64,000 bases of DNA from Polaribacter batillariae (GTDB lineage: Bacteria > Bacteroidota > Bacteroidia > Flavobacteriales > Flavobacteriaceae), in contig NZ_CP071795.1 of assembly GCF_017498485.1 (NCBI RefSeq), positions 1,922,001 through 1,986,000 on the forward strand. Reading direction: 5' to 3'. The notes below the pieces were generated by a model. The model saw only the letters and a program-made list of their open reading frames with translations, ran no database searches and was not told where the DNA came from. Made by a program: the position numbers and the translations under genes. Positions 637-12,680 of the stretch are shown in pieces (the first letter of the stretch is position 1; each line of letters begins with the position of its first letter).

Positions 637-774
637 ACGTCTTTGTTTATGGAAAGTTACGTGTTTTAAACACTAAAGTTAGCAAGTAAATCACAGATAG
701 AAAATCCGCGAGGATTTTCGTAAAAAATTAATGAGTTTTTACTTGTTTTTTACCACAGTACTTTGCTAGGCACA
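637..774 (-). repeat. Cassette-boundary repeat R1 (family II)
   Basis: About 137 nt, nearly identical to R3 at 2453-2597 (roughly seven scattered differences by eye). It starts on the plus strand with ACGTCTTTGTTTATGG and ends with ACCACAGTACTTTGCTAGGC, abutting the stop codon of the protease gene at 776. The outer mfd-side core is degenerate (GACGTCG instead of GTTAGNC), as expected for the terminal copy of an array. It contains the short palindrome GTGTTTTAAACAC at 661-673. Confidence 0.8.
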
Positions 775-775
775 G

Positions 776-1708
776 TTATTTTCCCATAAGAAAATCATAG
801 TAGGGCGAGTGTAGATAATGATTAGGAGTAATATAAATAATATTATTTCCTAAAACATAAACGGCATTAAAGCGTTTCAAAAACCTGTTTCCAAATGCTC
901 CATCTACTTTTTTGGAGTCGTTAACATTTGATTCATTTGTCGTAAGCGTACAAGGAATTTTGTAAAACTCATAATCTCCAAGATTTACTTGATTAATTAA
1001 CCCTATTAGTTCTTTCGACATATTACCATCTGAACTTATAGACTCACTCTCTCCTAAAATTGGCATATCATAATATAGTTTGTTGTTTTCCGTGAATTGT
1101 GTTGTAAAATTGATATCTCCATTACTTCCTGTATCCCAACTCATTTGTCCTTTGTGATAGTATTTTCTTAATTTAAAAGTAAAGCCTACTGTCGGTATAT
1201 CATCTATGAATTTGACATTTAGTTTCTCTCCATTTCCATTGTAGTTATAATTTTCTTTATTATAAAATAGTATCATTTTTGAGTCATAATTAACTTCGAC
1301 TACATACTTTTTAATTATTTCACAGCCAATAATCCCGTCAAATTTCTTTTTTGTTGAATACGGAATAGAATATAGAGTTAAGTTGTCAATTTTTTGATTT
1401 CCAAAAATTAAAGTGTTTTTTGAGCTTGATTCTACGGTACTCTCTCCATAAGAGCCAATATTAATATCTTTTCCATCAAATTTCAACTTGAGACTATTTC
1501 GAGCAATGCTGTCAACTATAACTACTGATTTTGCTCCAGAGTCAAAAAGAAAGGTCAAAGTATCACTTTTATTAATCTTAGCTTTAATGTAAATTCTTCC
1601 ATCTTCTTTTAATTCAAATGGAATTGAAGTAATCAATTCATTTTTTTGTGCAAATAAATTTTGAAAAAATAATAGAAAAAAAAAGATAGTAAATGTTTTA
1701 GTCTTCAT
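776..1708 (-). CDS. Secreted retropepsin-like aspartic protease
   Basis: The protein has 310 residues with a signal peptide of about 20 residues (FFFLLFFQNLFA then QK). Two aspartyl-protease half-motifs are visible: DSGA at residues 56-59 and WDTGS at 191-195. They are followed by the hydrophobic motifs FDGIIGCEI (123-131) and VDGAFGNRF near 268. This is the layout of the bacterial 'aspartyl protease' families (PF13650/PF13975 type), with both lobes in one chain. It presumably acts in the periplasm or outside the cell; its substrate is unknown. The start lies 48 nt downstream of repeat R2 and the stop touches R1, so the gene fills one cassette of the array. I see no recognisable promoter in the short leader. 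Confidence 0.75.
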   Translation of the reverse strand: MKTKTFTIFFFLLFFQNLFAQKNELITSIPFELKEDGRIYIKAKINKSDTLTFLFDSGAKSVVIVDSIARNSLKLKFDGKDINIGSYGESTVESSSKNTLIFGNQKIDNLTLYSIPYSTKKKFDGIIGCEIIKKYVVEVNYDSKMILFYNKENYNYNGNGEKLNVKFIDDIPTVGFTFKLRKYYHKGQMSWDTGSNGDINFTTQFTENNKLYYDMPILGESESISSDGNMSKELIGLINQVNLGDYEFYKIPCTLTTNESNVNDSKKVDGAFGNRFLKRFNAVYVLGNNIIYITPNHYLHSPYYDFLMGK

Positions 1709-1755
1709 AAGGTTTAACTTTCGTATTATTGGTTGGGTGATTTTTTTTAATTCTG

Positions 1756-1887
1756 ACTAACGGTTTTATTTATAGAAAGTTGCGATTTTGCCTACTGCTG
1801 AATTTCCGAAGGAAATTCAGCAGTAGGCAAAAAAGCAACTAATTTTTATAAGGCTAAAAGTAGCAATTTTTTATAAACAGTGTTAGT
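1756..1887 (-). repeat. Cassette-boundary repeat R2 (family I) with a 22-bp perfect hairpin
   Basis: The outer ends are ACTAAC (1756-1761) and GTTAGT (1882-1887), perfect inverse complements. Inside, AGTTGC (1778-1783) pairs with GCAACT (1835-1840). The centre is a perfect 22-bp stem, 1786-1807 against 1811-1832, with a GAA loop. The remainder (TTTATAAACAGTGTTAG end) is shared with R7 and R8. The architecture, two short terminal cores with nested imperfect dyads, is that of an integron attC-type folded site. The resemblance is structural, and recombination is inferred. Confidence 0.8.
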
Positions 1888-1892
1888 AAATG

Positions 1893-2402
1893 TTATTTTT
1901 CTTTCCAATAATTCAATTCCCTATAAATTATTGAATCTTTATCGTTTTTCCAATTTAGTTGAATTTCTAATTTACTTTTTTCTTTAGAAATTTCGTTTAT
2001 GATTTGAACATAATTACTGCCATATTCCCCCAATTTTTGGTCGAGAAATTTGTAACCATACCTTTTTAATTCAGAATTTAATTCAGTAATTTGTTTATTC
2101 GAGATTTTCAATGAACGGATTTTGTCATAATCTTTCTCTCCCTTAATATTTAATGTGTCTAAAAAGTAATCAAATCCTTTTGCAACAACATTATTCCAAT
2201 CATCTACATAGATTTGATAATAGTTTCTCAATCTTCCTTCTTTTTGCCGTAAATTAAACCATCCACAACCAGCTGATATTGTATCGCAACCATCTTTCAC
2301 GACTTCTCTCATTGAAATATTAAACTTATTGTCAAAAGCATTATAAGTAGGTAAGGGCTTGCAACTATTCAGAGCAATAAAAATTAAAATACTCTTTCTC
2401 AT
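1893..2402 (-). CDS. Small lipoprotein, function unknown
   Basis: The protein has 169 residues. The N-terminus MRKSILIFIALNSCKPLP gives a very short signal sequence with a lipobox-like LNSC, so Cys14 is the probable lipidation site. The rest is soluble and charged and matches no family I recognise. It is a single-gene cassette: the stop lies 5 nt from R2 and the start about 50 nt from R3. Its size and lipobox resemble the other cargo of the array. The start codon is the only ATG that provides a signal sequence. Confidence 0.6.
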   Translation of the reverse strand: MRKSILIFIALNSCKPLPTYNAFDNKFNISMREVVKDGCDTISAGCGWFNLRQKEGRLRNYYQIYVDDWNNVVAKGFDYFLDTLNIKGEKDYDKIRSLKISNKQITELNSELKRYGYKFLDQKLGEYGSNYVQIINEISKEKSKLEIQLNWKNDKDSIIYRELNYWKEK

Positions 2403-2452
2403 TTTTCAATTTTTTATTCATTTAACCAGTTTGAGTGATTCCCGCAATATTT

Positions 2453-2597
2453 GCTAACGTTTTTGTTTATGGAAAGTTACGTGTTTTAAACACTAAAGTT
2501 AGCAAGTAAATCACAGATAGAAAATCTGCGAGGACTTTCTGTAAAAAACTAATGAGTTTTTACTTGTTTTTTACCACAGTACTTTGTTGGGCAATGG
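2453..2597 (-). repeat. Cassette-boundary repeat R3 (family II)
   Basis: Read on the minus strand, it starts with GCCCAAC, which fits the attC R-box consensus RYYYAAC exactly, and ends with CGTTAGCA. Internally AAGTAAA and TTTACTT can pair, and CAGATAGAAAATCTG forms a small hairpin (2515-2529). It is nearly identical to R1, and its left half recurs at 7761-7816. Confidence 0.8.
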
Positions 2598-2601
2598 CTT
2601 T

Positions 2602-3186
2602 TTAATTATCCCTTTTTTTTACTATTTCTTTTATATATATATCTTTCATCTCATTTGAACGAGTAGGGTCGCCCATTACTAAAATTTTGTTATTTTTATC
2701 AGTCAATACTGTTTTGAAATCATCTGATTTTACCATAAACGGGTTAAGCCTTATAAAATCCTTCTTTTTATCAAGAAAGAAAGGATAAATATATTTTTCT
2801 ATCTCATTAGTTTGACAGTAATACTTGAAGAGTTCAAAATCATCATCAGATTCTAGAACCAAAAAAAACTGAGTATTATAACGTTTAAATTCTCTGGATA
2901 ATTTATTCCATATGTTAATTTTATTGATACAAGCACCACAAGAAGCATTAATGTGGGTGTAAATTTTGTATTGTGAATTATTTACTCTGTTGCTATCGAT
3001 TATCTGTTTGGGGAATGGATTGTATTCAAATAAGCTGTCAGGAATTATTAATTCTTTATTTAAGGTGTTATTTACAATAAATTCTAGAGACTTCACTTTT
3101 TTATGAAAACCCTTGCCCTTACAAGACAAAATAGAAATGCTAATAATTCCAATTATTATTGAAAATTTTAAAAATTTAGTCATCAT
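2602..3186 (-). CDS. Thioredoxin-fold lipoprotein with CGAC motif
   Basis: The protein has 194 residues. The N-terminus ends in SILSCKGKG, so Cys22 is the likely lipidated residue. A CxxC motif, ASCGACINK, lies at residues 82-89 after a beta-strand (KIYTHIN), as expected for a thioredoxin-like active site; the downstream order of strands is compatible with that fold. It would act as a thiol-disulfide or redox-sensing lipoprotein in the periplasm. It follows the BF3164-like gene by only 5 nt and so forms an operon with it and the NVEALA-like gene. The whole trio sits between R3 and R4 as one multi-gene cassette. Confidence 0.6.
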   Translation of the reverse strand: MMTKFLKFSIIIGIISISILSCKGKGFHKKVKSLEFIVNNTLNKELIIPDSLFEYNPFPKQIIDSNRVNNSQYKIYTHINASCGACINKINIWNKLSREFKRYNTQFFLVLESDDDFELFKYYCQTNEIEKYIYPFFLDKKKDFIRLNPFMVKSDDFKTVLTDKNNKILVMGDPTRSNEMKDIYIKEIVKKRDN

Positions 3187-3191
3187 GTTTT

Positions 3192-4276
3192 CTAATTAAT
3201 TTTGGCTTCTATCAGATATCCTGTATTTATATCAAAAGAATATAAATTTTTGTCATTTTTAGATACACCAAGTGTATATATGTGTCTATCTAAGTCTAGT
3301 CTCTTAATGGGGTTTCCATTCCAGTCATATATATAAACATATTTACCATAAGACCACTTATACCTATCTTCTTCTGACCTGTTTTCTCTTTGATGTCCAG
3401 AATAGACTAAGTAAATATATTGATTTGTGACAGTGCCATTAATAAATGCTTTTTTAGTTTCCTTATTTTTACCCATATAAAAATATCCTGAAGTTTTTTC
3501 TTGTTTGAAGTTTACATCATATTTTTCAGGACCATGTATAGTAATACATTCTTCTGTTTCTAAATTATAAATTTCAATTATATCACTATATCTGTAACCT
3601 AGAACTATTTTTTTTTGAGTAGGATGAGAGTATATAACGGAAGTATGTATATCTCTTATTGTTTCAAGTTTTAGCTTGTCAGTTGGAATTTGATATTCTC
3701 CATATTTATTTAACACATCATTGGAAATTAGATTTACAATGTCTATTTTTGATTTAGATGAAGACCCAAAAGCCCCAATTCCACAAAAGTTTAAACTATC
3801 TATAAAGGCAATACTAGAATAAAAATTTTTTAGTTTATATTCTTTTGAAGGGTAAAAGGTGTTGTTCTTTATAATGTTTTTTACATTTGACTTAATTATC
3901 TTATTTAAAGTGCCGTCATACAGCCATATTTGACTACCTGTTATTCCTATTTTACATCCACCTATTGACTCATTTGGTCCCTTTCCTTTACTGACATATC
4001 CCTTTGAAAGCTTATTTTATTTAGAGAATAATTATTTAAGAAAAATCTACTTCTTTTATTGTTGTTAAAGATTATGAGAGTTGTATCTATTGGATAAATT
4101 TGAAAAGGTTCTCCAACTTTATATTCAATTAAGTTGTTAAATGTGACTTTATCTACACTAGGAAATTTATTAAATGTTTTAGCTTTATTATTTATAAAAT
4201 AAACACTATTTTCATTTTTACAGGATAGTAAAGATAAAATAGTAATTGAGATGAGATAGATTTTGTTTTTTTTCAT
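3192..4276 (-). pseudogene. BF3164-like six-bladed propeller lipoprotein, frameshifted
   Basis: Two frames together make one protein of about 360 residues. The first part (4276 down to about 4010) starts MKKNKIYLISITILSLLSCKNEN with a lipobox LSC. It runs out of frame near the AAAGGG at about 4011-4017, ending at a stop at 3962. From the same point a -1 (or +2) shifted frame reads GYVSKGKGPNESIGG, the family hallmark (GKGP.E). It stays open to the stop at 3192, through IWLYDGTLN, GIGAFGSSS, YGEYQIPTDKL and YIYDWNGNPIKRLDLD. BF3164-like proteins are Bacteroidota lipoproteins with a TolB-like propeller, often beside NVEALA peptides, as here. This is either a decayed gene, a sequencing error or recoding; I favour one of the first two. 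Confidence 0.7.
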
Positions 4277-4345
4277 ATTGGTTTTGAGATTTGATTCATG
4301 TGTATATAAATATGCAGACTTGTTTATAAAGCCTGCATATTTTCA

Positions 4346-4612
4346 TTAATAGCAGTCAGCTAATGTATACCATTTGTCAGGTTCACAATTATAAATGTGA
4401 TGCATCCATCCATTATTTTCAACATGACACCATTTATCTTGTTCAAGACTACACAAATCTCCATCTATAGCTTCGTCTCCTTCTGCGCTCGCAACATTCA
4501 TAGCAATCAAGCTTGCTAAGTCTGCATTATTCCTGTTTTGGATATTTGTATTTAAAAATAAGGTTATAGCAATTGCTACAACTCCTAATCCTGTTATAAA
4601 CTTTAGTTTCAT
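4346..4612 (-). CDS. NVEALA-like small secreted protein
   Basis: The protein has 88 residues. A hydrophobic N-terminal segment (ITGLGVVAIAITLFLNT) is followed by LASLIAMNVASAEGDE, which corresponds to the NVEALA motif region of PF14055-type proteins at about residues 39-43. A C-terminal domain with four cysteines follows (C54, C62, C76, C87). Such proteins are common in Bacteroidota next to BF3164-like lipoproteins and are presumed to be exported peptides; their role is not established. The frameshifted BF3164-like gene lies 69 nt downstream on the same strand. Identification rests on the leader pattern and on the neighbour. Confidence 0.6.
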   Translation of the reverse strand: MKLKFITGLGVVAIAITLFLNTNIQNRNNADLASLIAMNVASAEGDEAIDGDLCSLEQDKWCHVENNGWMHHIYNCEPDKWYTLADCY

Positions 4613-4829
4613 TATTATGAAGTTTTAATATTAATGGGAAAAATTACTTTCTCTAGAATGATTTTTTACTATTTACTCAGGTTCTGCAAGGCATTCAGCA
4701 TTTTAACTAAAACAAATTACCATAATTAAATAGTAATAATCTTCAATAGCAAAGATTTCCTCAAAGTTTCTACTTGTCAATTTGTCATAGGCATTGATTT
4801 TTTATGATTAATGTCAGTTTCTAGCTTTT
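4613..4829 (-). other. Upstream region of the NVEALA-like operon
   Basis: About 217 nt without an ORF separate the NVEALA-like start from repeat R4. This is the longest leader in the array, and the only cassette with obvious room for its own promoter. I could not find a clear TAnnTTTG element here, so the promoter itself is not called. Confidence 0.3.
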
Positions 4830-4976
4830 GCCCAACGTCAGTCTGTCCCAAAACCACCATTTGTTGTTGAATATAAGAAATTTAAATTATTTCAGAGCAG
4901 TTTAAGCAACTTTTAAAGGTTGAATTTTATGAAATTGGCAGACTAGCCATTAATTATACACCGCTTGTTGTGTATA
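4830..4976 (-). repeat. Cassette-boundary repeat R4 (family III)
   Basis: On the minus strand the distal end is GTTGGGC, a perfect GTTRRRY core (GCCCAAC at 4830-4836 on the plus strand); the proximal end carries ACACAAC. It shares GACTAGCCATTAATTATACA (4941-4960) with R5. Internal AGTCTG (4840-4845) can pair with CAGACT (4938-4943). Confidence 0.7.
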
Positions 4977-4981
4977 GTTTT

Positions 4982-5815
4982 TTACATTGGTGGAGGTGGA
5001 ACATTTTCAGTTAATTTCATTTTGCTCTCAAAAAAGGGAATCATTTCCGATGCTTTATTTACCACTTTTTGTATTATTCCATTTTTGTCTATAATAATGT
5101 GTGTTGGATAGATTTGTAAGTTTAGTGTTTTGACAATAAATTCTCTTTGATTAGATACTACTTTATATTCAAAAAACTTCTTTTGCAAAAATTCATCTAA
5201 TTCAAGTTTTGAGTCCAATGCCAAACTCAAAAAGATTATGTCATTACGGTTTTTGTATTTTTCAACTAATTCATTTAATTCAGGAAATTCCTTAACACAA
5301 GCCACACAGTTAATGAACCAAGTCTTTAAGACAATTATTTTTCCTTTTGTGTTTTTATTATTGTAATCATTATCATTAAGGTCGGTAAAATTAAACTTAG
5401 GAAATTCCGTGCTTTCCATTTTAAAGTGTTTAAGGGCCAACAACGATTTATTTTTTATTGTACTTCCAATACTTTTGTTAGCAAAAGAATCAAGCTCAAA
5501 AAGTTTATAAGTTTCAAGTCTTTCATTTGATTTTAACTTTATAGGAATATAATTGGAAGTAATTAATTTCTCCAAAAACTGTTTTTTCTCAATGGTATCT
5601 GACTTTTCGTTTAAACCTGTAAAATTTGAAGATAAAGTAATGTTCTTTGAGTGGTAAGTCCACCATTTCATAAAATCAGTTTCTAATTCAGTCAGATTAA
5701 CTTTTGGGTCAAGGTTTTCAACTTGTTCTGATAATTTAGTTTTTTCAGATTTTTCTTTACAGGAAAATACAAAAATGAATAGTAGTAAAATCGTAATTAT
5801 TTGATGTTTTTTCAT
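4982..5815 (-). CDS. TlpA-like thiol-disulfide oxidoreductase lipoprotein
   Basis: The protein has 277 residues with a lipobox FSCKEK (Cys19). The C-terminal half is a thioredoxin/redoxin domain: GKIIVLKTWFINCVACVKEF carries the CxxC (C170-V-A-C173), and IYPTHIIIDKNG near 236 supplies the cis-proline segment. The N-terminal about 140 residues are a helical extension of unknown role. It would reduce or exchange disulfides in the periplasm. The start is 15 nt from R5 and the stop 6 nt from R4, so there is no space for a private promoter. It is the second CxxC thioredoxin-fold protein of the array. Confidence 0.8.
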   Translation of the reverse strand: MKKHQIITILLLFIFVFSCKEKSEKTKLSEQVENLDPKVNLTELETDFMKWWTYHSKNITLSSNFTGLNEKSDTIEKKQFLEKLITSNYIPIKLKSNERLETYKLFELDSFANKSIGSTIKNKSLLALKHFKMESTEFPKFNFTDLNDNDYNNKNTKGKIIVLKTWFINCVACVKEFPELNELVEKYKNRNDIIFLSLALDSKLELDEFLQKKFFEYKVVSNQREFIVKTLNLQIYPTHIIIDKNGIIQKVVNKASEMIPFFESKMKLTENVPPPPM

Positions 5816-5829
5816 TTTTTTTAAATATG

Positions 5830-5961
5830 ACTAACGGCGGATATAAAATTAGTGGCGTGATTTAGCATGAAAGTTAACAAATAAAAACCGAATAGAATAT
5901 TTCTGCGGAATATTCGTAAGCAGGCTCGGACTAGCCATTAATTATACACCGGTTAACCAAC
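5830..5961 (-). repeat. Cassette-boundary repeat R5 (family III) with long outer stem
   Basis: The plus-strand left end TAACGGCGGATATAAAATTA pairs imperfectly with the right end GCCATTAATTATACACCGG, giving a stem of more than 20 bp with few gaps. An inner hairpin is GAATATT/AATATTC around 5894-5912. The distal core on the minus strand is GTTAGTC and the proximal end GGTTAACC. This copy shows the pairing of the two ends most plainly. Confidence 0.75.
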
Positions 5962-5964
5962 GTT

Positions 5965-6486
5965 TTAATTCCAATCATTTTTTAAATTATCTAATTCAGA
6001 AGTATTAGTTCCTACATAAATATTTCTCCAAAATATACTTCCATCTACTTTCACAAAAACCCTATAATAACCAATTTCTAAGCTTCTTAAATCTATTTTA
6101 ATTTTCGATAGACCTGAATTTGTTAGTTTTATTTTTGAATTTTTTTCAATTTCATTTTCAGAGTACAATTCAGAATTTAATATTGTTCCAAAATCAGTTT
6201 GTAAGTAATTTTTACTTGAATTTGCAGGTCTAATCCAAATTTCAGACATAATTCCCATTGAATACACATTCAAAATATCAACTGTTGGGTTTGGGTATAA
6301 ACCAAAATTAATAATATTTAATTCATTCGGATTTCCTAATTGACCTATTTTTCCGCCTGTGAAATCTATTAAATTAATTCCTGTAACCAAATTAATGTCT
6401 ATGTTATTTTCAGCGTTATCTATGTCTTCTTTCTCACTGCATCCAATTACAGATACAAAGGCTAAAAATATTATAATTCTCTTCAT
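5965..6486 (-). CDS. Small lipoprotein with a T9SS sorting-domain-like fold
   Basis: The protein has 173 residues and a lipobox VIGCSEK (Cys16). Residues from about 57 read NFGLYPNPTVDILNVYS and later IDLRSLEIGYYRVFVKVDG with WRNIYVG. This is the order of motifs in type-A T9SS C-terminal sorting domains (YPNP..., then L..G.Y.V.V...G). Here the domain makes up most of a lipoprotein and is followed by a 12-residue tail, so it is unlikely to work as an ordinary sorting signal; a free-standing beta-sandwich is more likely. It is a single-gene cassette, 12 nt from R6 and 4 nt from R5. Confidence 0.55.
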   Translation of the reverse strand: MKRIIIFLAFVSVIGCSEKEDIDNAENNIDINLVTGINLIDFTGGKIGQLGNPNELNIINFGLYPNPTVDILNVYSMGIMSEIWIRPANSSKNYLQTDFGTILNSELYSENEIEKNSKIKLTNSGLSKIKIDLRSLEIGYYRVFVKVDGSIFWRNIYVGTNTSELDNLKNDWN

Positions 6487-6498
6487 TTTTCTAATGTT

Positions 6499-6612
6499 GC
6501 CTAACGTCTTTGTTTATGGAAAGTTGCGATTTTGTCTGCGAGGAATTTCCGAAGGAAAATATTTTAAAAAATTGATTTAAATTAATGGGAAAGTGTCTGT
6601 TACAAACAGTTT
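6499..6612 (-). repeat. Cassette-boundary repeat R6 (family I, diverged right half)
   Basis: On the minus strand the distal core is GTTAGGC, a perfect GTTRRRY (GCCTAAC at 6499-6505 on the plus strand). The next 60 nt match R7 and R8 (GTTTATGGAAAGTTGCGATT, then TCTGCGAGGAATTTCCG). The other half is replaced by unrelated AT-rich sequence ending in TTGTAAC-like bases, so this copy is a hybrid. Confidence 0.7.
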
Positions 6613-6615
6613 ATC

Positions 6616-7239
6616 TTAGAATTTATAATTCATTCCTAATTGAATGACAGATGTATTTGAATTTTGGCGTTCTATAATTCCAAAATTATATCTCAACGAA
6701 ATTCCATAGTTAGCTGTAAGTAAATATTCTAATTCTAATCCAATTCCTATTTCAAAATTTTCCGAATTATCAATTAAACTTAAAACCTCTTTTGATAATT
6801 TCTCAAATTTAAACTCTCTATTTAATGAATATCCAAACTGAGGTCCAGCTCCAAAGTTTAATTTTTCATTTAATTTATATTCTAATATTATTGGGATATA
6901 AAGCATTGACTCTTTAATATTTCCTTCTACTGTATTTATATAAAACATACCTCCTACGCCATACGTAAGTATTCTAAGGTTATTAATTATAAGGTCGCTA
7001 TCTTGTTTTGAATATAATATCTCAGGTCTTATAGATAATTTTTCGTTAACTTTAAAAGAAAAAAAAGCTCCAATATGAAATCCAACTTTTCCTTTATAGT
7101 AAGTTGAAATTTCGTTATCATTATTACCAACGAAACTTGAGTAATTCAGTCCTCCTTTTATTCCAAAATCTGTTTTTTTCTGTCCATAAGATGCTAAAGT
7201 AAATAAAGTTATTCCAATAAGTAAAAGTGTTCTTTTCAT
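6616..7239 (-). CDS. Outer-membrane beta-barrel protein (PorT-like family)
   Basis: The protein has 207 residues with a signal peptide MKRTLLLIGITLFTLASYGQ. It then shows the pattern of small eight-stranded Bacteroidota barrels (PF13568 type): DFGIKGGLNYSSFVG, GFHIGAFFSFKVNEKLSIRP, ILYSKQ, then YIPIILEYKL and FGAGPQFGYSL. It ends with LGMNYKF, an aromatic C-terminus typical of outer-membrane proteins. The function is unknown. The cassette lies between R6 and R7, with the start 25 nt from R7. Confidence 0.8.
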   Translation of the reverse strand: MKRTLLLIGITLFTLASYGQKKTDFGIKGGLNYSSFVGNNDNEISTYYKGKVGFHIGAFFSFKVNEKLSIRPEILYSKQDSDLIINNLRILTYGVGGMFYINTVEGNIKESMLYIPIILEYKLNEKLNFGAGPQFGYSLNREFKFEKLSKEVLSLIDNSENFEIGIGLELEYLLTANYGISLRYNFGIIERQNSNTSVIQLGMNYKF

Positions 7240-7263
7240 TCGTAATGTTTATTTTAATTGTTT

Positions 7264-7384
7264 GTAGCGGGTTTGTATAAGAATAGTTGCGATTTTGTCT
7301 GCGAGGAATTTCCGCAGAAAATTCAAACGTAGGCAATTTTTATAAGGCTAAAAATAGAATTTTTTTATAAACAGTGCTAGCATT
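7264..7384 (-). repeat. Cassette-boundary repeat R7 (family I)
   Basis: It shares AGTTGCGATTTTGTCTGCGA and the terminal TTTTATAAACAGTG block with R2 and R8. The cores are altered (GTAGC on the left, GTGCTAGC on the right), so this copy may be inactive. It separates the beta-barrel cassette from an ORF-less stretch. Confidence 0.7.
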
Positions 7385-7760
7385 TCGTAGTTTTTTTAGT
7401 TTGTAATTCTGTTTTTTAGTGATTATTCCGCCAAGTTTTTGGTTCAGTATTAGAATGATTTTCCGCAATTCTGATTTTCTGCATTTTACTCAATTCTGCA
7501 AGTTTTTAAATTCAGCGTTTGTGTAAGAATTCCACCAAAATGATTTTCAGGACTTGAGTAAAATTTCTTTAATGTTTGATTTTTAGTGTTTTATAGTTTC
7601 AGCCGTTTGCAAAATTCTGCCTGAATTTTGCGAGCGAGAGAGTATTCCACATTTTTGGATTCAATTTTTTTTTTAGATTTCGAAACGGTAAAAAAACTAC
7701 TAAAACAGGTCTTTGCAATAGCAAAATCAGGATTAATATATGATGAAAATTATAAAAGTA
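7385..7760. other. ORF-less cassette with conserved hairpin motif
   Basis: This 376-nt stretch lies between two array repeats and has no credible ORF on either strand. Positions 7606-7656 are nearly identical to 8695-8744. The shared motif has a 9-bp stem, GCAAAATTC / GAATTTTGC with a TGCCT loop (7609-7631), followed by GCGAGCGAGAGAGTATTCCA. Weaker similarity extends upstream of the motif. It could encode a structured RNA or be a decayed cassette. Confidence 0.5.
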
Positions 7761-7816
7761 CTTTCGTAAAAAATTAATGAGTTTTTACTTGTTTTTTACC
7801 ACAGTACTTTGTTGTA
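7761..7816 (-). repeat. Partial family II boundary repeat, overlapping a coding end
   Basis: The sequence from TAAAAAATTAATGAG through ACCACAGTACTTTGTTG is almost identical to the right half of R1 and R3. The left half is missing. The stop codon of the neighbouring cassette gene (7785) lies inside it, so about nine C-terminal residues of that protein are encoded by repeat sequence. Confidence 0.7.
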
Positions 7817-8372
7817 ACACGTTTTTTATTCCGTTAAATATTTTATTCAATTCAATTTCTCGTTTTTCAATTCCGTCCATTTTGTCAATTTTCTGACCGA
7901 ATATTTTTTTCCAAAAACCTCTTTTTGTAAAGTCATAAGAATAACTAAAGTTCGAGTCAAATTCCGCAATGTAAAGTTTCGACTTCAGAATTTTGTCGTT
8001 TTTCACGAACTGAACTTCTTTACCTTTTAATCCTTTTTTGAGAATTGAGAGAATTCCGTTTCGATTCCGTTCATTAAATTCCAATGCTGGATTTCCATAA
8101 GTTTTTCCGTCGTCGCTAAAATCGTGTTGGTAAAAATATTCTCCCTCAACATATTTATTATAACCTGGAACAGTTGGATTAAAAATCTGTAAATAAATTA
8201 GTGAGTTTTTCTCCAAATATCCAACTCTAATTTCAGTCAAAGAGTTTTTGTCGGTTGATTTAAGTGTCTGGATTTCGGTTTGATTTATTAATTCAGAAGT
8301 TGAGTTTTCAAATTGTCCGCTGTCAATTAAAACTTGGTTAATAAACTCTTTCCAATTTCTGAATTCCTGCAT
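7785..8372 (-). CDS. Hypothetical protein of the cassette array
   Basis: The protein has 195 residues if it starts at the ATG at 8372 (MQEFRNWKEFINQVLID). An in-frame upstream extension to 8477 lies entirely inside repeat R8 and is not credible coding. There is no signal peptide or transmembrane segment, so it is probably cytoplasmic, unlike most cargo here. I recognise no family. The sequence is rich in aromatic and charged residues (GYLEKNSLIYLQIFNP, GEYFYQHDFSDDGKTYGNPA). The C-terminus (NVLQQSTVVKNK) is encoded by the partial repeat, which suggests that cassette exchange replaced the original end. Confidence 0.55.
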   Translation of the reverse strand: MQEFRNWKEFINQVLIDSGQFENSTSELINQTEIQTLKSTDKNSLTEIRVGYLEKNSLIYLQIFNPTVPGYNKYVEGEYFYQHDFSDDGKTYGNPALEFNERNRNGILSILKKGLKGKEVQFVKNDKILKSKLYIAEFDSNFSYSYDFTKRGFWKKIFGQKIDKMDGIEKREIELNKIFNGIKNVLQQSTVVKNK

Positions 8373-8395
8373 TTTCTTGATTTGGTCAAATGTGT

Positions 8396-8527
8396 TACAA
8401 CGTCTTTGTTTATGGAAAGTTGCGATTTTGTCTGCGAGGAATTTCCGAAGGAAATTCAGTAGTAGGCAAAAAAGCAACTAATTTTGATATGGCTAAAAGT
8501 AGCAATTTTTTATAAGCGGTGTTAGCA
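8396..8527 (-). repeat. Cassette-boundary repeat R8 (family I)
   Basis: It runs from ACAACGTCTTTGTTTATGG to the end GCGGTGTTAGCA. AGTTGC and GCAACT pair, GAATTTCC-GAA-GGAAATTC forms a central hairpin, and GTTTAT/ATAAGC form the outer stem. It is closely similar to R2, but R2's long perfect stem is shortened here because one arm reads GTCTGCGA. Confidence 0.75.
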
Positions 8528-8894
8528 AATGCGTGTTTTTATGTTTTTTTCAACGTTTTTTTGTTTTCCGCAAAGATTTTAATTATAAATTTTGCTTAAT
8601 TCCAAAAACGTTTTAAACTCAAAAATTGAGTAAGAATTCCGCGTTTAATTTTTTCAGAGTTTGAGTGAATTCACACGTTTTACAATTCCAACTATTTGCA
8701 AAATTCCGCCTGAATTTTGCGGGCGAGAGAGTGTTCCACATTTTAAAAATTCCTTTTCCTTCGTTTTAAAATTTAGAGTTTTAAATTACAATTTTTATAG
8801 AAAAACGGGCTTGAAGGACTTATGCCCTTTTTTTGATAAAATCAGCAGTTTTTGCTAACTGTTATTATTAAAAGTGTTCAAAATAAAAAGCAAG
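8528..8894. other. Second ORF-less cassette at the array edge
   Basis: There is no credible ORF in this 367-nt stretch. It carries the second copy of the hairpin motif (8695-8744) and resembles 7385-7760 along much of its length. A GCTAACTG sequence at 8855-8862 may be a degenerate terminal core, after which single-copy sequence resumes. Confidence 0.45.
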
Positions 8895-10208
8895 CTACTT
8901 CATAGGCACTTTTACAATTACAGTTTCTCCTCTTCCTTTTTCGTTAGCAATACTTTGTATGGTCCATAAATCTTTAAAATTGTCTCCATCTACAGTGGTT
9001 CCACTATAATCTCCCCACGAAGTTCCATTGGTTGCTCCTCTACCTTTACCTAAATTTACAATTTTTCTTAACGTTCCTTTTGGGTCATTTGCATATCTAA
9101 ATGCCATTCTTGGGCTTATAAACACCTCTGAATTTGTTTCTTGAAAACCAACCAAAACATCGTTATTTGCATTAACTCCAATGGTTGTTTGTATGTAATT
9201 TGTTCCTTTTTTATGAATTAAACCTGTTTGAACGATACTACCATCTGTTTTTATTTGATGCCACTGTACTCCAGAATTTCCTTCTACATTTACAGCCTGA
9301 GAAAACCAAATATAACCACCTTGCATTACCAAATTTTTGGGGTTTCTATCTCCAGAAGATGTTTTTTGATTGGTTCCTTTTTGCGGAGATTTTGGAGGAT
9401 AATTTATATATTTTAAATGATGAGGTTGGTTACCAACTTCTTCATAAACAGGAGAACCATCTTCTGTAGAAGTAACTTTATTAATTACAAAACTATTTCC
9501 TTTAATTTCGAAAAAATACAAATCTTCTGTATCGTCTTGAGTAAAAACAGGATGTCCTAAACTTCCTTTAAAATGATATATTGTGGCTGGTTTTCCAGAC
9601 TTTACTTCTTTAGATTTTAAAACAAATGTTTTTTCGTCTCCACCAGGAAAAGAATAAGCAATCCATTTTTTGCTATAACCAATTCCACCACCATCTACAC
9701 CTTTTGGAGTTGGAACAGGATAAATATTCCATGCTTTATTTGGATTATCAGTTTCTGAAACTGCAATATTTACAGGCTTCTTTTTCGATTTATCCCAAGG
9801 ATTCCATAAATCAAAAACAAACATTTTGTTGTGTGCATCGTAATACATTTTTGGGTCAATTCCGTTATTAAAACATTTTTGAGACACGCCATCTATATAA
9901 TTTCCGTTTTTGTCGTAAATAACCAAACCAGAGTTAGAACCGTGTAAAATGTAACCTCCACCAATGGCAATTTGCGGATCTACTTGTCTGTTTCCATCCA
10001 TACTTCCATTAAACTGCATGTAACCATTTACGGTTTTAGGGTTTCCACCTTGTACACGTTGTTTACATTTATCGTTTCTAAATTCGTTTTTATGAATTGG
10101 TAGAATCACTTCAGTTCTCGAAGGTGCAATTTGGTTTTGTGCAGATATTACTGTAGAAATTGATAAAACAATTCCTAAAACAGCAACGATTTGTTTTTTG
10201 AATGTCAT
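8895..10208 (-). CDS. Secreted hypothetical protein, probable beta-propeller
   Basis: The protein has 437 residues from the ATG at 10208, with a clear signal peptide (MTFKKQIVAVLGIVLSISTVISAQ). A longer start at 10238 exists, but a TAnnTTTG-type promoter element at 10236-10243 overlaps it, which favours 10208. The body has repeated strand-like segments (VDPQIAIGGGYILHGSNSG, KWIAYSFPGG, NLVMQGGYIWFSQ, NDVLVGFQ, TSWGDYSGTTVDGDNFKDLW). These are typical of secreted propeller proteins in which WGDYSG...D marks a blade. I see no catalytic motif and no T9SS tail. It is probably periplasmic or surface-exposed; the function is unknown. Confidence 0.65.
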   Translation of the reverse strand: MTFKKQIVAVLGIVLSISTVISAQNQIAPSRTEVILPIHKNEFRNDKCKQRVQGGNPKTVNGYMQFNGSMDGNRQVDPQIAIGGGYILHGSNSGLVIYDKNGNYIDGVSQKCFNNGIDPKMYYDAHNKMFVFDLWNPWDKSKKKPVNIAVSETDNPNKAWNIYPVPTPKGVDGGGIGYSKKWIAYSFPGGDEKTFVLKSKEVKSGKPATIYHFKGSLGHPVFTQDDTEDLYFFEIKGNSFVINKVTSTEDGSPVYEEVGNQPHHLKYINYPPKSPQKGTNQKTSSGDRNPKNLVMQGGYIWFSQAVNVEGNSGVQWHQIKTDGSIVQTGLIHKKGTNYIQTTIGVNANNDVLVGFQETNSEVFISPRMAFRYANDPKGTLRKIVNLGKGRGATNGTSWGDYSGTTVDGDNFKDLWTIQSIANEKGRGETVIVKVPMK

Positions 10209-10235
10209 ATTTTTTAGTGTGAAATGATTTTTTCT

Positions 10236-10243
10236 CAAAAGTA
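10236..10243 (-). promoter_or_regulatory. Putative -7 element (TACTTTTG)
   Basis: It matches the Bacteroidota TAnnTTTG -7 consensus on the minus strand, 28 nt upstream of the ATG at 10208. No clear -33 TTG is seen. It helps choose that start. Confidence 0.4.
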
Positions 10244-12564: not shown

Positions 12565-12680
12565 CTCTCTTTTCTATTGATTTTCCTCAAAAATAAGAAT
12601 TAAAACTTATATTTTATCTTTAACATAATTTTAAAACGGAAGTTGCACTCATTCGTTATTTTTATAAAAATTTATTTTTG

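Follow-up and report, generated by a model that had tools for sequence, protein, structure and literature searches.

Integrons are the best-known bacterial gene-capture platform. Their integrases are defined by an IntI-specific additional domain, which is used by IntegronFinder (PMC9668308). Integrons have been described as nearly absent from Bacteroidetes, and the only complete one that IntegronFinder 2.0 reported in Bacteroidetes proper was that of Salinibacter ruber (PMC9024848). One route proposed for integrase-less clusters is off-target insertion by an integrase encoded elsewhere in the genome (PMC8618304). In the Polaribacter phage P12002L, for which no integrase was assigned, one attC site was recombined with attI1 by IntI1 (PMC9892861). 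The present analysis concerns an array of genes and repeats at positions 637-8859 of a 64,000-nucleotide (nt) stretch of the Polaribacter batillariae chromosome (NZ_CP071795.1, positions 1,922,001 to 1,986,000, or G000:C1:1922001-1986000; hereafter the window) in a complete genome of 3.89 Mb. With a probability of about 0.92 for the explanation as a whole, this array is an integrase-less satellite cassette array (CALIN-type, that is, an attC cluster lacking an integrase) belonging to a Bacteroidota-type integron; the complete platform of that integron, with its integrase gene at G000:C1:1300980-1302140, lies elsewhere in the chromosome.

Considered across the phylum, the results look like a widespread unrecognised integron type in Bacteroidota. 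A gene-capture system thought to be nearly absent from these bacteria appears common among them, in an unfamiliar guise. No description of the enzyme, the attI site or the co-directional layout was found in the open-access PMC literature, preprints and subscription journals being outside this scope.

Gene cassettes in the window

A preliminary description of the window had read positions 637-8530 as an integron-like array with nine repeats. Our analysis found all nine repeats, between genes that are all on the minus strand. The start of the array was retained; its end lies at 8859, because an additional cassette without an open reading frame (ORF) at 8402-8859 precedes the repeat at 8396. Positions 637-8859 are best read as nine gene cassettes on the minus strand (W1 to W9), each with an attC-like site at its end. 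The opening 10 nt of each unit, beginning with GTTR, are reverse-complementary to a 10-nt segment (the own arm) at the edge of the unit's own repeat, where that segment ends in YAAC. We read this pairing as R''/R' complementarity, as an integron cassette shows it when circular. What had been called degenerate cores are mostly such cassette-specific arms, with which the first 10 nt of the cassette pair. Sites were scored with R1, a covariance model whose 46 training sites came from 20 other loci, none of them in the genome of the window. In the list below, the main array is that behind the recombinase gene and array B is an array at 3.83 Mb.

8852-8890, plus strand: remnant of an EamA-type transporter gene, last 13 residues, truncated where the cassette starts; 69% identity to the end of the 285-amino-acid (aa) congener gene
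8402-8859, minus strand: cassette W1, without an ORF, of a type that also has copies in the main array and array B; start GTTAGCAAAA pairs with own arm ATTTGCTAAC at 8521-8530 (9/10)
8399-8523, minus strand: attC-like site of W1 (repeat at 8396); R1 81.7 bits, E 5e-14
7811-8401, minus strand: cassette W2, ORF within 7785-8477, ATG probably near 8372; start GTTGTAACAC, own arm GTGTTACAAC at 7811-7820 (10/10)
7735-7820, minus strand: decayed attC-like site of W2 (repeat at 7761), 88-91% shared with the sites at 715 and 2536; missed by R1
7266-7378, minus strand: attC-like site of W3, a decayed ORF-less cassette at about 7268-7740; R1 39.6 bits, E 2e-5
6506-7268, minus strand: cassette W4, gene 6616-7239 for an outer-membrane beta-barrel protein (Pfam PF13568, 1e-15); start GCTACAAACA, own arm TGTTTGTAAC at 6599-6608 (9/10)
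6503-6611, minus strand: attC-like site of W4; R1 34.1 bits, E 2e-4
5836-6505, minus strand: cassette W5, gene 5965-6486, lipoprotein-like, no Pfam match; start GTTAGGCAAC, own arm at 5952-5961 (8/10)
5833-5954, minus strand: attC-like site of W5; R1 42.0 bits, E 5e-6
4837-5835, minus strand: cassette W6, gene 4982-5815 for a thioredoxin-fold (AhpC/TSA) lipoprotein (Pfam PF00578, 1e-13); own arm poorly kept (3/7)
4833-4976, minus strand: attC-like site of W6 (repeat at 4830), of a different type, 26-nt end common with the site at 5929; missed by R1
2459-4836, minus strand: cassette W7, multi-gene, ORFs 4346-4612, 3962-4276, 3192-3716 (TolB-like, Pfam PF15869, 2e-24) and 2602-3186; start GTTGGGCAAA, own arm ATTGCCCAAC at 2586-2595 (9/10)
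2456-2568, minus strand: attC-like site of W7; R1 34.9 bits, E 1.5e-4
1762-2458, minus strand: cassette W8, gene 1893-2402, no Pfam match; start GTTAGCAAAT, own arm ATTTACTAAC at 1882-1891 (9/10)
1759-1884, minus strand: attC-like site of W8; R1 72.5 bits, E 4e-12
637-1761, minus strand: cassette W9, last of the array, gene 776-1708 for a retropepsin-like aspartyl protease (Pfam PF13650, 1e-9); own arm at 765-774 (7/10)
637-747, minus strand: attC-like site of W9, distal end of the array, adjoining mfd; R1 25.6 bits, E 0.012

Of the nine repeats model R1 recovered seven, each of them on the minus strand. At E<=0.1 it revealed no further site anywhere in the 64-kb window, the roughly 55 kb outside the array being empty of such sites. 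It missed the repeats at 4830 (different type) and 7761 (decayed fragment), where the cassette edges are still visible. Seven attC-like sites and no adjacent integrase place the array within the definition of a CALIN, which asks for at least two attC sites without an adjacent integrase. No Rfam family matched the window. Start and own arm pair at 45 of 56 positions in the window, and only 2 of 40,320 permutations reached the score of the own pairs. Single genes between repeats, as described earlier, are not the rule for W7, which carries four ORFs.

ORF-less cassettes of about 460-510 bp were observed in the window (7390-7740 and 8531-8859) and in another locus, L031 (at 12171, 13841, 15330 and 15789). 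Three of their types are about 75% alike past the first 80-115 nt; many copies are identical, and the palindrome GCAAAATTCnGCCTGAATTTTGC is conserved in them. They are possibly promoter or regulatory cassettes.

Cassette units and site folding

Pairing between start and own arm was counted in four arrays. At least six of seven variable positions matched in 44 of 57 own pairs, compared with 3 of 53 same-repeat pairs and 32 of 741 other pairs. The site edge was set by hand for these counts, and a later chain parser without a hand-set edge agreed. Analysis of 31 loci with this parser revealed chains of up to 23 consecutive units, and 252 cassettes were found in the 23 loci having chains of four or more. 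Shuffles gave chains of at most three and the reverse strand of at most two, the latter control being valid for the strict CGTT parser only, because start and arm are symmetric and an any-GTT parser chains both strands. Among 238 distinct cassettes the longest ORF was co-directional in 164 and opposite in 5, and 69 had no ORF of at least 60 aa; ORF stops cluster 10-20 nt before the arm. Defence-like genes were observed in L031 cassettes at 12637 (three identical copies) and 17632, namely a gene whose product matches DrmC/ZacB models weakly, and one for a type IIG restriction-methylation protein accompanied by a helix-turn-helix gene. A SIR2-like cassette was found in genome G465.

A total of 46 non-redundant sites from 20 loci, none of them from the genome of the window, showed compensatory changes in 12 of 17 stem pairs. 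Paired cells amounted to 94.2%, against 27-37% with the partners slid, and none of 500 shuffles reached the score. The pair types are almost all Watson-Crick, which is what folded DNA should show. In the circular form the bottom strand folds into an outer stem of 10 bp and a second stem, with an asymmetric internal loop between them, which is the order of parts in attC. The sites are hence predicted to fold as attC-type sites do, with R''/R' complementarity and GTT at the cassette edges.

A complete platform elsewhere in the chromosome

The absence of an integrase noted earlier holds for the window and not for the genome, which has a gene for a 386-aa tyrosine recombinase at the coordinates given above, about 620 kb from the window. 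Both genome searches suggested in the preliminary description gave positive results. The repeat at 8396 as query yielded 42 matches, mostly in one-strand clusters, and one of six Phage_integrase matches directly precedes the largest cluster. Model R1 found 63 sites in this genome. Besides the window, repeat clusters lie at about 1304-1339 kb, 2243-2250 kb and 3830-3839 kb.

At the main locus the order is recombinase gene, promoter-like box, attI-like ATATAAC-NN-GTTR and then at least 20 cassettes. The recombinase stop is followed by TATATTTG and then GATATAACTAGTTGTGAGC, and the first repeat unit starts at the GTTG there. The nearest named homologues of the integrase are from Polaribacter. Most of the loci inspected have the integrase gene followed by the same ATATAAC-NN-GTTR, and an attI-like ATAACNNGTTR occurs within 150 nt past the integrase stop in 35 of 45 named loci (shuffles expect 0.12; upstream control 1). 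A putative attI site is present, then, next to the integrase gene. A TAnnTTTG-like box, as a loose pattern only, precedes attI in 24 of the 35 loci. Integrase genes with an in-frame stop were seen in L056, L062 and at G025:C1:1171577-1172479, consistent with some platforms decaying.

Cassette reshuffling and the window junction

Cassettes of 459-1204 bp recur within the main array at 100% identity as whole GTT-to-GTT units. Those of 459-512 bp recur also, reordered, in array B, on the other strand. Along its whole length W1 shares 93.5% identity with cassette c5 in the main array. The preliminary description had set against the integron reading a picture of scattered repeats without cassette turnover. 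This picture does not fit, because whole identical cassettes recur in different orders in loci 2.5 Mb apart. The integron-cassette reading itself is borne out by strongly covarying attC-like folds, R''/R' complementarity, reshuffling at GTT edges and a linked recombinase with an attI-like site.

Of the 16 contigs ending within 200 nt past the integrase stop, eight end exactly at AGTT(G) of the attI-like site. We infer an assembly branch point there, with several sequences after attI or a repeated first cassette. Contigs ending exactly at the attI-like GTT were observed in separate assemblies (L125, L129, L134, L137, L146, L148, L152 and L153); array heterogeneity in the sequenced cultures or samples is possible, as is a repeated first cassette.

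In two congeners (G450 and G457) an intact 285-aa EamA gene lies between mfd and a 437-aa gene (window 8895-10238). The outer junction of the window array is in this EamA gene at AATAACAG, to be compared with attI ATATAAC-NA-GTTR, and the empty-site sequence AATAACAGTCAAC resembles attI. The junction fits a putative off-target insertion, followed by loss of the remaining EamA gene.

The recombinase and its relation to IntI

The catalytic set R-K-HxxR-H-Y is conserved in 26 of 26 members of the recombinase family, and PF00589 matches at 3e-38. The IntI-specific additional domain around patch III was not found in the recombinase. Between the matched stretches there are 62 residues in IntI4 (2a3v) and 20 in the recombinase, and from the patch III lysine region to HxLRH there are 107 residues in IntI and 65-66 in the recombinase family. 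TIGR02249 scores 213.6 bits against the recombinase in two stretches, under its cut-off of 265. Since the recombinase has no IntI-specific insertion, it should not be called IntI. In an unrooted tree IntI forms its own clade (Shimodaira-Hasegawa-like approximate likelihood ratio test 99-100) and the recombinase family forms other clades; in this tree a group of IntI and clade I excluding clade II was not rejected (approximately unbiased test, p 0.5). By fold, the catalytic part is most like archaeal XerA and IntI4.

The extra N-terminal domain has 84 residues (mean predicted local distance difference test score 87). Its nearest fold is the XPB damage-recognition domain (Z 6.8, 1.9 A over 58), and it also matches the SMARCAL1 HARP domain (Z 4.0), both Z values being below 8. 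One of 26 members matches Pfam HARP (8e-4), and a PDB sequence search with the N-terminal domain alone gave nothing significant. The modelled resemblance to HARP/XPB structure-specific DNA-binding domains is taken as a lead only. Tentatively, and at clearly less than even odds, Bacteroidota may have their own integron lineage, in which a Xer-type recombinase gained recognition of folded attC sites without the IntI-specific domain, a HARP/XPB-like N-terminal domain reading the single-strand/double-strand junction of the hairpin. If so, folded-site gene capture evolved more than once, or there was an ancestral form without the IntI domain.

Spread among relatives

Homologues (at least 40% identity over most of the length) occur in roughly a third of 149 genomes of the family, nearly all from different genera, and the recombinase family at E<=1e-85 occurs in 69 of 394 genomes of the phylum. 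Model R1 found sites in 58 of 198 genomes, with at least 118 in each of three relatives. Large arrays were observed at G473:C1:1079-1222 kb (about 140 kb) and G113:C1:173-240 kb (about 70 kb), with at least 118 attC-like sites per genome.

A second clade (about 40% identity) was found in Flavobacterium, Algoriphagus, Cyclobacterium and Kaistella, and two of its members are on Chryseobacterium plasmids. It also heads cassette chains where enough downstream sequence is available, and several members have the attI-like site TATAnACAAGTTR. In second-clade loci L155, L169 and L161 one or two hairpins, for example ATCTACCCAAATTTAGGTGTAT, were seen at 0-150 nt past the integrase stop, between the stop and the attI-like site. 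On G001:C13 the gene for a member of the recombinase family is at 65561-66370 on the plus strand and the sites are upstream at 1980-63033 on the minus strand, which is the divergent layout of classical integrons.

A related platform thus heads cassette arrays across many Bacteroidetes genera, some with more than 100 attC-like sites. It was probably missed because detection requires the IntI-specific domain. Canonical IntI was found in 84 of 296 genomes of the phylum; no TIGR02249 match above the cut-off was found in the genome of the window or in any listed genome of its family.

Proposed mechanism and alternative explanations

The recombinase at 1300980-1302140 probably moves the cassettes. 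The mechanism proposed for the observed units, edges, folding covariation, shuffling, linked enzyme and attI-like site presumes catalysis by this recombinase, a choice of strand, promoter activity and possibly a role for the N-terminal domain. A cassette would be the unit from GTT to GTT. Its attC-like site, when single-stranded, would fold into a hairpin in which an asymmetric internal loop separates a cassette-specific stem of about 10 bp from the covarying second stem. The recombinase would then join the hairpin at G^TT to the attI-like ATATAAC-NN-GTTR after its own gene, which would place the new cassette just behind the TAnnTTTG-like promoter box; another attC-like site or an attI-like chromosomal sequence could serve as alternative targets. 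Repeated capture, excision and duplication would give arrays ranging from a few cassettes to more than 100. Off-target insertion into the EamA transporter gene would have been the origin of the window array. If the system works as proposed, it gives access to a large stock of unexamined cassette genes, in which restriction enzymes and SIR2-like defence proteins were seen, a second enzyme becomes available for asking what a recombinase needs to read folded single-stranded DNA, and the origin of integrons becomes testable.

Several points weigh against this satellite-array explanation. Identical cassettes may in part result from homologous recombination between repeats and not from site-specific recombination. 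Most of the EamA gene is gone, so that insertion must have been followed by deletion or rearrangement. The link between integrase and sites is not strict, because some congeners have attC-like sites and no clade I integrase (20 sites in G452 and 64 in G464). The satellite is also partly decayed, as the arms of W3, W6 and W9 are poorly kept. This decay would also suit a complete integron that lost its integrase in place, and the window array could be its relic and not the product of an off-target insertion. We consider this unlikely: no integrase remnant was found beside the window array, and its outer junction falls within the EamA gene that two congeners have intact at this position, with the attI-like sequence compared above.

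The repeats could be ordinary palindromes of the repetitive extragenic or miniature inverted-repeat transposable element kind (REP/MITE), spread by a transposase or by homologous recombination, with gene order merely following. Full and partial copies, 81-98% alike, do occur at many places in the genome, some of them single. However, what is conserved is the pairing of a cassette's start with the far edge of the repeat that belongs to it, not pairing within one repeat (44/57 against 3/53). Gene-plus-repeat units move whole, and the sites, which show a strong common orientation, lie behind an attI-like site and a recombinase; an origin as such palindromes is extremely improbable. Nor is it at all probable that these are canonical arrays served by an IntI elsewhere, with the linked recombinase as a bystander (a Xer or phage integrase). 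The anatomy of cassettes and attC sites is that of integrons, canonical IntI exists in the phylum, and IntI1 recombined an attC site of a Polaribacter phage (PMC9892861). Yet TIGR02249 has no match over the cut-off in the genome of the window or the listed genomes of its family, and in dozens of genera the attI-like site and the array come after the linked recombinase, with contigs breaking exactly at that attI. The reading as a satellite of a Bacteroidota-type integron is hence preferred.

Comparison with known systems

The closest known relatives in organisation are sedentary chromosomal integrons (superintegrons, IntI). Shared features are a tyrosine recombinase gene with an adjacent attI or attI-like site and, here by a loose pattern, a promoter-like box, a long array of co-directional compact cassettes including ORF-less ones, integrase-less satellite clusters, and attC hairpins with R''/R' complementarity and a GTT crossover. 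Unlike in superintegrons, the recombinase has no IntI-specific insertion and has an N-terminal domain of about 85 residues; its gene is upstream of and co-directional with the cassettes, with the attI-like site after its stop codon; and the sites, of about 140 nt, have a cassette-specific arm of about 10 nt and do not require GTTRRRY. Among known integrase-less attC clusters the window array counts as one, and its junction fits the off-target route (PMC8618304), although the integrase here is not IntI by the usual definition.

The CALIN of the Polaribacter phage P12002L (PMC9892861) has short attC-flanked cassettes, belongs to the same host family and shows the same complementarity of start and own arm, which in this phage (L246, 29237-32494) reaches 8/8 nt in three cases. 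Model R1 does not match the short attC sites of this phage. The IntI1 result on the phage attC supports shared chemistry and names no flavobacterial integrase. Archaeal XerA/XerC-like recombinases (PDB 4a8e, 5hxy; NCBIfam NF040815) are the best sequence and fold matches of the catalytic part, and the matched structures are without the extra N-terminal domain. Overall, our analysis suggests a system that works like an integron and is not a member of the IntI type by the accepted definition.

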